Origin: Apostichopus japonicus
Lineage: Eukaryota > Echinodermata > Holothuroidea > Aspidochirotida > Stichopodidae
Assembly: GCF_037975245.1 (NCBI RefSeq)
Contig: NC_092577.1
Location: 33,128,398 to 33,192,397, forward strand
Length of the DNA stretch: 64,000 nt
Direction of reading: 5' to 3'
Each line of letters opens with the position of its first letter. Positions within the stretch are counted from its first letter, which is position 1. A model generated the notes under the pieces. That model saw only the letters and a program-made list of their open reading frames with translations, had not been told where the DNA came from and did not search any database. The translations under genes were made by a program, and so were the position numbers. Positions 45,701-54,700 of this stretch are shown here, piece by piece.

Positions 45701-48700
45701 GGGAACCCCCTCCCCTTAGACCCCTCCCCAGGCCAGCCATCAGTCTTCAGCCCCCCACTCAAAAGTACCTTCCTACGCCACTGCTAACCGGAAGAAAAAA
45801 AAGAAACTCTTAGAAAAAGATAACTGGTGAATTTCATAACTTTGATTTCGTTTTTCTTTTACTTGGCAGATTATACCAATGTTAACGGATCCAACTCAGT
45901 ATGGTGGGAAGGACAGCGATTATTTTGAAGTGATATGCCCCTCTCTTCCGGGTTATGGATTTTCAGAAGCACCTCATCGTCCAGGTAAAGACCATCGCCA
46001 ATTTAGTTGAAAAGGGATACGTTGCAGGGGCTCGCATTTCCTTCCTGTCCATTCCACCCCTTTTACAAAATATGCAGTTTGGTTACAGCTTCATTTTCCA
46101 TTCACAATCACACTGTCACCATTCTCTACCTCCTGCCCTCACCCACCCCACCTCCCCCTACACCCCTCACCAAATTTTTCTCAATTGGTTTGAGTATTTC
46201 ATAATCAATTGTAAAGCGATATGGTAAGTTTCGTGAAGAATAAGTGCAATTTTATGTTAATCTTGCTGATAACAGTAAATTGTTGAGCCTAACTCCTCAG
46301 TCTGCAACTCAAACTATTAATGATGAAACCACTCCAGTGACAAAAATGGAAATGTCACTATACAAAGGATATAATTAAAGTTGCACACGCGCACTGTCTT
46401 CATTGTTTTAGTTATGTTGACATATCCTATCGCCAGACCCTTAGTGAAACTCTTTGTTTCACTTGATTTATGGTTGAGGACAGATATTTTTCATATGTTG
46501 AAACGTTCAGCAGGCTGCATTTAAAGCATGCATTCGTTGCAAACATCGTGGACCACATGTGATGTATACAGTGAAGTCACTGCCTAGACAAAATGCAAGA
46601 CTTATACTGAGGTATATGTATGTGTGGGATTATCCATAAAATGAACACTTAATGATAGGGAATATGGATGTACTGTTATACTCGAGCAGTCAGTTTGCTT
46701 TAACTTGAATAATAACGTTCGACTGCGAGCTATATTTAAACATGTTAGTTAACTATTTCTATTACGTAACTGTAGATTTCGATCCTAGAGACGCCGCTAG
46801 AATATTCCACATCCTTATGCACGAACGGCTGGGATTCAAAGACTACTACGTTCAAGGTGGCGATTGGGGAGCTGCAGTAGTTGGGTTTATGGCGTTATTT
46901 TATCCGAAGTAAGTTCCAATCCTTTTCTTTCTTTTTTTGAGACCAATCTCAGGCGCAGATCCAGGAGATGTGGGGTAATACATCCCTGTTCAACCCACCA
47001 CCCCACCACCCCCAACATACACCAAACAAACTTAATGTAACTATAAACGCAACTTTGCCTATTGATCTTATCAAAGATATAATTTATAGCCTAATTTGTC
47101 TTTAAATTCACCACCTTTTTATACCCCATCATATGTTCAGCATATTACTTGTAATCTTAAAAGAAACCAAAGACGAGTGTTAAAACGTTTCGGGTCCTTT
47201 TATTCATTATTATTACTCTTTATAATTCCTAAGATAAAATTTTGCATCCATATGAAATTTCTGTTACATTTACCGATAATACATACACATAGCTTACGTA
47301 CTTTCTTCCAGTAATGTGCGCGGTCACCATAGCAACTTCATCACCTATCAGCCACCCCTTTTCCCTCTTCGAGCCTTGCTTGGAAGTGTTTGGCCGTCGC
47401 TCGTGCTGTCGAAGAAATCCGACCAGGATAAAATGTTTCCATTCGGGGATTACATGAAGAATCTTGTACTTGAGGAAGCTGGCTATTTTCACCTACAGGC
47501 CACCAAACCTGACACAGTCGGTAAATATTGCATAATTGTATGAAACTATTACGTAACATTCGTCATTGGCTTCTTAACCATAATAGTATGACCTCAGTTC
47601 TTATATGCAAAGTTCTAGGCTAGGCTAAAGTATGATTTTTGCTAGCCTTTTTGAGCGCATGTTGCTTTGTGAAACATCTTTCTAAGCATATTTGTTGACG
47701 ACAGACGTCTGTTAACTGTTGATGAAAAAAATGATAGATAAAACAAACGAAAATCACATAATAAAATCTAATAATACCGGCCTTTAAGGTAGTTATTAAC
47801 GACGATAAACATATGCATGCACGTCGGAGAAGGGCGAAAGGTTTATAACTTATACACAATGTCATTTTAATTTGTACAATTTGGAAAACTGTTTCAGATG
47901 GGAAAAGCGTGGATTTTCCTTGATGAAAAGCCAACCTTATTGGCCTGCCAAGGCTCGAACCCACGACCTCCGAGATGACGCTTGATTTCTTTGCTTTTAT
48001 AATGTCCCCCACCTTTGTCCACTCAAGCAAAGCTCTGGTAAGCTTGTGGTATATATCCAAGGAATTCCGATAGAAAAGGAGTGGCATTGTTGTGTTTGAA
48101 AAGACGCTTTATGCGTTCGATCCATTTTCAATATCCGTAAGTTGGAAGGGATAAATTTTTCTCTTCAGCTCGAGGTGTACAAAAAGTGTAAGCTGTTTTT
48201 GTTACATGAAGGTTATAGTGTGTATCCATTTATGCGAAACATTTGAAGAAACTGTCGGTCATTTTACGAAACCTCAGTATTGAAATCCCTTATCAGAATA
48301 TTTGGTTGACTTAACTTTTCAAAAGTTGGAGAACAAACAGCAAATTTAATTTGAATATTTTCAACTGGGTTCTCTCGATTTTTCAGACATTTTGTATGAT
48401 CATGTGATTTATAGTACTATGGCTTATGTAAACATATATGGAAGATAATATTGTCAGAAGGGAATCCTTAACTGATAACTAATTAATATTAATTTTGGTG
48501 AAACAATGTAGATGGATGTCTTATAATTTTAACTTTTTAATTTGTTTGTCTTCGTTGGAGTTATTCTGTGGATATAGGTTACGATAAATTACCAAAAGTT
48601 ACCAAAAGTTGACAAAATGCCAGAATCGAAGATCTATGTTAACAGTTTTGAGTCAGTCCGTTTTTCGAGAATAACCTTGAATGGTTTAGGAAAATAAGTC

Positions 48701-51700: not shown

Positions 51701-54700
51701 TAAGAGACAATCGTGTGAGGTACAGGAGGCTACGCTGGGAACCCACTCCTCTCTCAGAACTGAATAACAATTATTTGAAGTAATAGTAATTAACACACTT
51801 ATTCAATCTGTGTCATGTATTTTTCGATAGGGGGTTGTCGTAACCGGGGAAATAGGAAAATTGATGAATATGAACATAGGCCGGTGAAGAAAAAAAAACC
51901 TTGGGGCACTTACACTGTATCTCCTTTTGATTTTCGAATAATAGTGGTGTGACTTTTGTGACTGTGTAGTCTGTGTATACTACTGCCCTTCCCTAATTTC
52001 ACCCCATCCAAGTCACCCGGTTGCAAAACAGAAAGCAGAAACTGTAAAGCACAAAGTAGTGCATGCAGTTATCTACCAAAATGGTATGAAGCTGTTTGGT
52101 TCTGACTATGTGTATGCCTTCATGGTTCATACTTTCTGTAATTGCATGCAAGGTTAGGCTACCTGGGGAGCAGCCATGTACCACATTACAGTAAGCCCAA
52201 CATCACCACTTTGGATACTAATCACCTTTTACAACAGCCGCACACAACATGCAAACTACTATACTCATTACTCACCTTTACTAGTAAAAGACCTTTCCCA
52301 CAATGGTGGGATGCTCCTGTCAGAGAAAACAATGTTTTGCTTGACGTAGGCCTCAACCGCTTGATCAAGTCTGTTAAACACCACTACCGGAGAGGTGCCT
52401 TTGAAGAAGGTACTGATTCCTCCAAATTGATTTCCGACTTTCGTGATGAATAAATGAGGCTCCGTCCCAATTAAGCTTGGCAAGTTTCCTAGCAATGGCC
52501 ATGGTGTGAGTCCTGGAGGAAGTTTGGCTCTGGCTCGTCTCGCCCTGAGGAAGTTTAGAACCAGAAAATAAGTAAGCAATGAGACTGTGAACACAATGAT
52601 AGTGTCCTTGTTGGGAATCATTTTAACGATATGCTGCCGTTCAGTCTATAGCAGTGTGTTGAATCAGGAATCGTCGAACAGAAACTACGAACAGAAAGTC
52701 TGCAGAAAACCATGCACCGATGCGAATGTTTGAGTATCTTGTAGCTTTCGATTGTGCTATTGTCAAACCATGCTTCCGTTAAACAAACATTGAACACTGC
52801 ACCGTCGATTTAGTAGACTACTCAGTATGGTAAGGGGTTAGACATGCCGTTGTACACTCGACTCCAGAATCTGACCTGATAAACCTACTGACTTTCAGTA
52901 CTGCCACACACACACTGCTCTCTCAGTTTTGATCATGTCATATTATAAACTTGCAACTCTGCGGGTATTTTAATCGGATAGTAGACCAAGATAAGATCAA
53001 CATTCATTGCTCAGTTTTATACACCACCCAATTTGGCATATGAATGATATACAAGCTATATAGGCTATTCACAACCAATCATTTGTACAGTAGCAATAGA
53101 CGGTGTACCAGAGAGAGTGCATGGATTGAGTACATGTACTATAGACTTACAGTTCATAGCCCTGCTCTGTTGTTGACATACGCACGAAGCCAGCTTCTAA
53201 TATACGTACTATACGTACTGATACACAATATCGGATATGTCTGTTATTCACCACTCCACGGCCATACAGACAATAGAGCGGTCTGGTCGCGAATTGCTCA
53301 AGGGCTAGAGGTCACTGAGACTTGTCATAGACAAAGATATGATCTAGCCTGTAGCTAATTGCTCTATCGATCACTCATATTTATAGCCATACGCACCGTA
53401 TGTCTTGACAATTGCCTTATTTGTTGTGTATTTCCGTTTGTTGATGTCGTCCGTACTAATGGATCTGTATACCAGACGGCAAGACAAGACATACAACTAC
53501 AATAGGCCTACACAGCTGTTGACTAAAAAGTACACCGATCCAACTTGCTCAGATATTAAAGACTGCAGATCCACTTACGTTTTATGCAACCAAAATTGTA
53601 TGTCCTACATCGACATCACCAACATCTGCAATGATCAAACCTTGATAAATATTCAAACTGTGTCATGTGAAGTGATTTTATGTTGATGATATTTGAATGG
53701 TTGATTTAGTCAAAACTATAAATAATTATTTTAAAAATGTACTCCTAATTGTATCAGTGATAGACAATCCAACAACGATAAAATAGTTTGAGTGGGCTGT
53801 TTTTCCATAATCTTAACAGCCCAAACTATTCCTCAATTATAGCGTTGTTATCAGTTAATGACTACATTTACTAACTATTATACATAATTACCTAAACAGT
53901 TACCATGATGAGAGTAATAGTTTCTTTATAATAGTCTTACCTTTTCAAAAAAAGTTTGTTTTAATAATCTTACTGCTTGATATAATAGTCGCAATGTGTA
54001 CGAAAATATCACATTACCAAACAGGGCCCATAGCATTCTAACCAGGTCCACAGCAAGGGGGCCATTCCCCTCTGTGTAGACCATTGCGCCCTCAGTCATT
54101 TGCGCCACCGTCATGTGTACAATTATTACATGAGCTATATGATACGTTTATATTGTGCCCCTTTTTCAACTGTTGGTGCATCTCCTTAAATTGTTGGTGC
54201 CCTTCCAACATAGTCTCCCTAGCAACGGGCTATTTCATACGAATATATGTTCTTCAATCCATATTCGTCAATCCATACATATCGATCAACATCGATTAGG
54301 ACCCTAGACAAGCGGCACAATGTCCATGACAATCATTGCTCTTAAAATTCATTGGATGCATACGCCACCATCCTCTTTCGACTTGTGTCGAGACATTGAA
54401 TTTCGATTCACTGCATAGTGGACCGCCCAGAACACATATAATCTTCTATATGACGGTGACTTACCCGATTACACCCGGAAAAGATGATTACAACCCTTAA
54501 TGACCACCATTAACATGACAGTATTCTAAAGGTTCTATTTCACTATTTCACTTGCCTACAGGTCATAGCCTGACGGATTCTCCTGTCGGATTAGCTGCCT
54601 ACGTCCTAGAAAAGTTCTCTTTTTGGACTAACCCTAAGTACCCCCACCGCAGTGACGGAGGAATCACGGAAAGATTTTCAATAGATGATCTCCTTAATAA

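Follow-up and report, generated by a model that had tools for sequence, protein, structure and literature searches.

Antisense nested genes of metazoans, in which a whole multi-exon gene lies within one intron of a gene on the opposite strand, are the closest described counterparts of the locus analyzed here, where a cytochrome P450 gene occupies an intron of an EPHX1-like epoxide hydrolase gene in the same manner. The available portions of published surveys indicate how common such structures are. In seven vertebrates, 4.3-8.7% of protein-coding genes belong to nested structures, the nested share being 4.4% in human and 4.3% in mouse, about half that of Drosophila, and simple nested pairs on opposite strands number 220 in human (74.3%) and 193 in mouse (77.8%) (PMC8467205). 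The accessible part of a review places nested genes at about 1% in human (373) and about 10% in D. melanogaster, two-thirds of them being antisense (PMC4394429), and a comparison of five genomes, also available in part, finds overlaps to be rarer than expected and antiparallel overlaps to be enriched (PMC2330155). The antisense orientation of the pair described here fits this published opposite-strand bias. Elsewhere in these partly available sources, most nested genes are said to stem from young duplicates inserted into introns and mammalian nested pairs to show no excess of expression divergence (PMC8467205), and interference at the level of transcription has been reported both for intronic L1s and for nested genes, the evaluated set being in tandem with the host (PMC3192792). 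Nesting as a class is standard and known. The first-pass annotation, made from the letters of the DNA, knew of no standard description of the arrangement, a statement that fails for the class and holds for the particular pairing of a P450 with an EPHX1-type host, for which no description was found among the matches listed (titles and beginnings of abstracts) in a partial open-access literature.

The host gene encodes a protein that shares with the microsomal epoxide hydrolase family (EPHX1; 4qla) its EHN and alpha/beta-hydrolase domains and its catalytic motifs, the sole notable difference found being a long intron that holds another gene. The gene model, in which exons were joined at explicit splice sites, extends from 42734 to 55863 on the forward strand and comprises seven coding exons (coding sequence of 1,380 nt including the stop codon, 459 amino acids). 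Its introns measure 1,250, 1,400, 791, 403, 7,041, and 865 nt, and all six have GT-AG ends and matching phases. In the spliced model, with motifs placed by motif search, coding exon 1 (42734..43050) encodes an N terminus that is hydrophobic by eye and the beginning of the EHN domain, exon 2 (44301..44469) carries HGWPG (residues 151-155), and exon 3 (45870..45984) is followed by exon 4 (46776..46908), which contains the nucleophile motif GGDWG (residues 228-232). Exon 5 (47312..47520) ends with ...QATKPDTV(G), and exon 6 (54562..54796), placed also by alignment with 4qla, starts with (G)HSLTDSPVGLAAYVLEKFS. Exon 7 (55662..55863) contributes FPYE (405-408), GGHFAAMEQP (433-442, with GGHF at 433-436), and the stop codon, 3' of which AATAAA occurs at 56159.

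Pfam recovered EHN (PF06441) at residues 52-160 with an E-value of 4.3e-34, together with Abhydrolase_1 (PF00561; 4.8e-19) and Abhydrolase_6 (5.3e-06), so that both domain types that mark a microsomal epoxide hydrolase are present. The best solved relative was a juvenile hormone epoxide hydrolase (PDB 4qla; 7.7e-107, residues 25-453). Two tyrosines were located by motif search in GYFHLQ (302-307) and SSMRMYKE (373-380); together with GGDWG, FPYE, and GGHF, they presumably supply the oxyanion tyrosines and the Asp/Glu/His triad. In the alignment with 4qla, the triad and tyrosine positions have the same residues opposite them.

The nested gene lies on the reverse strand, its model running from 52621 down to 48634 with four coding exons (coding sequence of 1,509 nt including the stop codon, 502 amino acids). 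Its three introns (910, 786, and 783 nt) have GT-AG ends and phases 1, 0, and 1. As given by the spliced model and motif search, exon 1 (52276..52621) holds the start codon, an N terminus that is hydrophobic by eye, and PPG (35-37); exon 2 (50737..51365) holds WRFHRR (126-131) and the I-helix motif AGSDTS (300-305); and exon 3 (49617..49950) holds the ExxR motif (EVMR, 357-360), PERF (412-415), and the beginning of the haem motif. Exon 4 (48634..48833), located by tblastn and motif search, completes the haem motif FGLGRRICVG (434-443) and ends with the stop at 48634. The haem-cysteine, ExxR, PERF, and I-helix motifs of cytochrome P450s are thus all present, and Pfam matched p450 (PF00067) at 8.3e-88, aligning residues 35-490 with positions 1-460 of the 462 in the profile. 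No AATAAA was found on the P450 strand 3' of the P450 stop within the host intron, where ATTAAA occurs at 48541, 48350, and 47871.

The protein appears to be a P450 of the clan-2 type, and we claim only that much. Among the best 60 of 330 matches, which cover solved structures only, CYP2R1 scored best (1.4e-58, residues 31-495), followed by CYP1A1 (4.9e-57), CYP17A1 (6b82; 5e-57), and CYP2B4 (5.3e-55). No orthology is proposed, since the scores of CYP1A1 and CYP17A1 are nearly equal to that of CYP2R1. The signature motifs are common to clan-2 P450s and to the protein described here; in comparison with them, the present gene has four coding exons. Two of its junctions fall within G codons, in FGLG/RRICVG and KG/SVLWENG (slashes mark the junctions), and these positions, one at the haem motif and the other ahead of the WxxxR helix, we take to be CYP2 intron sites.

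Within the window (the whole stretch of DNA analyzed, 64 kb in length), the two genes form an antisense nested layout in this assembly, and both look intact. The P450 coding span (48634-52621) lies entirely within intron 5 of the EPHX1-like gene (47521-54561 on the forward strand; 7,041 nt, phase 1, numbered by coding exons only), so that the coding parts constitute a nested pair. The intron leaves 1,113 nt to the left and 1,940 nt to the right of this span. The other five host introns measure 403-1,400 nt. Its donor (CAGTCG/gtaaat) and acceptor (ctacag/GTCATA) join exons 5 and 6 into the protein ...ATKPDTVG/HSLTDSPVGLAAYVLEKF..., in register with 4qla. What had first been noted, namely a complete P450 gene antisense within this intron, with all four exons in a single 7.0-kb interval, was confirmed to the exact coordinates by the spliced models. 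The gene identities were borne out by the EHN and p450 scores, and the Pfam scores and long matches to solved relatives exclude chance matches. That both genes would carry their catalytic residues also agrees with our search, which found all of the sought motifs in the two proteins together (12/12); the status of these motifs as catalytic or signature elements is our assumption.

In tblastn searches of the window, every exon of each gene was found once, the remaining matches being background (E of at least 1.6 for the EPHX1-like protein and at least 3.7 for the P450), and neither gene had a further convincing copy there. Clustering of P450 or EPHX genes nearby was therefore rejected as an explanation of the pairing within these 64 kb. 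Searches with Rfam (gathering threshold) and ARAGORN gave no matches (0 each). Beyond the window, four and two stretches of viral contigs matched a pattern for the two proteins and none was confirmed, and of 31 pattern stretches in prokaryote genomes a single one was confirmed, a Novosphingobium locus with a distant hydrolase at 36% identity.

Other features of the window lie around this locus. As a general impression, gene content and base composition would suit a marine invertebrate, possibly an echinoderm. RING-finger ORFs occur on both sides of it, at 5043-5639 (forward strand; Pfam 4.7e-07) and 57361-59118 (forward strand; 2.6e-08), the latter also with a B-box (1.7e-07). Two long single ORFs match rhodopsin-type GPCRs in opposite orientation, at 12577-13683 (reverse strand; 1.3e-18) and 19841-21028 (forward strand; 4.4e-18), and are alike by eye. 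Three ORFs matching EF-hands, perhaps exons of one gene, lie within 34746-38274 on the reverse strand, and only the one at 36214-36486 exceeds curated cut-offs (1.1e-10). A forward-strand ORF at 35789-36157 resembles by eye the tail of a LINE polymerase and has no Pfam match.

The structure of the nested gene bears on its origin. It is not a plain retrocopy, since it keeps three introns, and this retention makes arrival by DNA-level duplication or rearrangement, rather than retrotransposition, the most likely route. Such a route would be in line with the insertion of young duplicates into introns described in the available part of the survey of vertebrate nested genes (PMC8467205). The sequence around the P450 gave no support for insertion by a transposon: it showed neither a flanking element nor a terminal repeat or target-site duplication that stood out. 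The weak inverted pair at 48445-48479 and 53847-53881 (35 nt, 71% complementary) has a perfect core of 12 nt, the longest inverted match between the flanks; matches this long turned up in 18.5% of 200 base shuffles.

Repeats with a second copy in the window, the only ones that this measure counts, cover 37% of host intron 1, 49% of intron 2, and 41% of intron 6, and their coverage of introns 3, 4, and 5 is 0%. One dispersed family measures about 355 nt and includes an internal duplication of 38 nt (87% alike). It has four larger copies, at 43868-44153 (reverse strand), 45069-45443, 45481-45783, and 54906-55260 (all forward strand), and fragments at 30353-30441 (forward strand) and 32134-32208 (reverse strand). 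The larger copies lie in host introns 1, 2 (two copies), and 6, and none in the intron that bears the P450. In the right part of that intron, an imperfect hairpin seen by eye at 53765-53850, with arms of about 35 nt, is perhaps the relic of a small mobile element.

Many P450s form epoxides and microsomal epoxide hydrolases open them, as is established for both enzyme families, and enzymes of both types can take part in the metabolism of xenobiotics or lipids at the ER. We examined the 1-kb regions 5' of the two start codons, comparing motif counts with 500 base shuffles. Upstream of the P450 there are three nuclear-receptor half-sites, a count reached by a fraction of 0.090 of the shuffles, two TATAAA (0.094), two CCAAT-type sites (0.632), and no ARE-like site. 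Upstream of the EPHX1-like gene there are one ARE-like site and two half-sites (0.214 and 0.252), and one TATAAA and three CCAAT-type sites (0.540 and 0.356). The XRE core is absent from both regions, no motif class sought departs clearly from the shuffles, and no shared xenobiotic-response element was convincing by this base-shuffle comparison. Note that the test is weak, because the regions were measured from start codons rather than from transcription starts. One 11-mer common to both regions, near the EPHX1-like start codon, is an uncontrolled raw match.

We consider the locus likely to be an ordinary case of antisense nesting, in which the functional match of P450 and EPHX1-like enzymes is a coincidence. 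A complete P450 gene of apparent clan-2 type, with introns of its own, occupies the largest intron of the host, and it would have arrived there through events at the DNA level. The P450 is presumably driven by a promoter of its own, located in the 1.9 kb from 52622 to 54561, and the EPHX1-like pre-mRNA would be transcribed through the P450 before intron 5 is spliced out. Any coupling of expression could take the form of mutual interference as well as co-induction.

This reading has to be weighed against one in which selection maintains the nesting as a functional P450-epoxide hydrolase module, coordinated by shared chromatin or reciprocal transcription. A P450 that makes epoxides inside the gene for a hydrolase that opens them is biochemically plausible, and both proteins look intact in the spliced models and Pfam searches. 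The five-genome comparison, in its available portion, finds conservation in mouse for 79 of the 152 antiparallel nested pairs of human. It also finds co-expression in 27.6% of human overlapping pairs, four times the random expectation, so that coupling in overlapping pairs generally stays possible (PMC2330155). Drosophila nested genes with diverged expression are enriched for P450 and xenobiotic terms according to the accessible part of another study, and nested genes of this class are therefore not unheard of, though the enrichment is for divergence and not for coupling (PMC13343718). However, the partly available review states that most human nested genes encode proteins functionally unrelated to the host product and that opposite-strand pairs are likely under inverse regulation (PMC4394429). 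At the locus itself, the 11-mer would favor a module, while the missing XRE core and the motif counts close to those of shuffles, weak as that test is, speak against it. Selection for such a module thus appears unlikely, and we regard as quite improbable the fuller proposal that epoxide-forming and epoxide-opening enzymes are inherited together as a maintained antisense unit, reciprocally regulated through transcription of the shared intron. The suggestion in the first-pass annotation that nesting could keep the pair linked or couple its expression found no support in the tests run; the match of functions is suggestive, linkage and coupling are unproved, and selected linkage is possible in view of that match.

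Two further alternatives would dissolve the nested pair altogether. A misjoin of a P450 block into the EPHX1-like locus during assembly has in its favor the one repeat family present in host introns 1, 2, and 6, yet the window contains no runs of N, coverage of intron 5 by repeats with a second copy in the window (rather than genome-wide) is 0.00, and phase and protein continuity are kept on both sides of that intron. The two coding sequences are also close in composition (GC of 0.438 versus 0.439; GC3 of 0.433 versus 0.447), and an artefact of this kind seems very unlikely. It is most unlikely of all that two separate truncated EPHX1 copies flank the P450: the intron is five times as long as the next longest in the host, but the exons on its two sides are complementary, with no overlap or gap, each is found once, their splice phases agree, and only after joining do they supply every catalytic motif. 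Since these exons are complementary and in phase, a single host gene is the simplest interpretation.

As it stands, the antisense nested pair of P450 and EPHX1-like genes represents a well-formed instance of a layout that is common among genes. If it proved to be conserved and co-regulated, it would represent an unusual animal case in which two enzymes of one metabolic sequence are locked together by nesting, and it would provide a clean test of the idea that transcribing through a shared intron can be adaptive.
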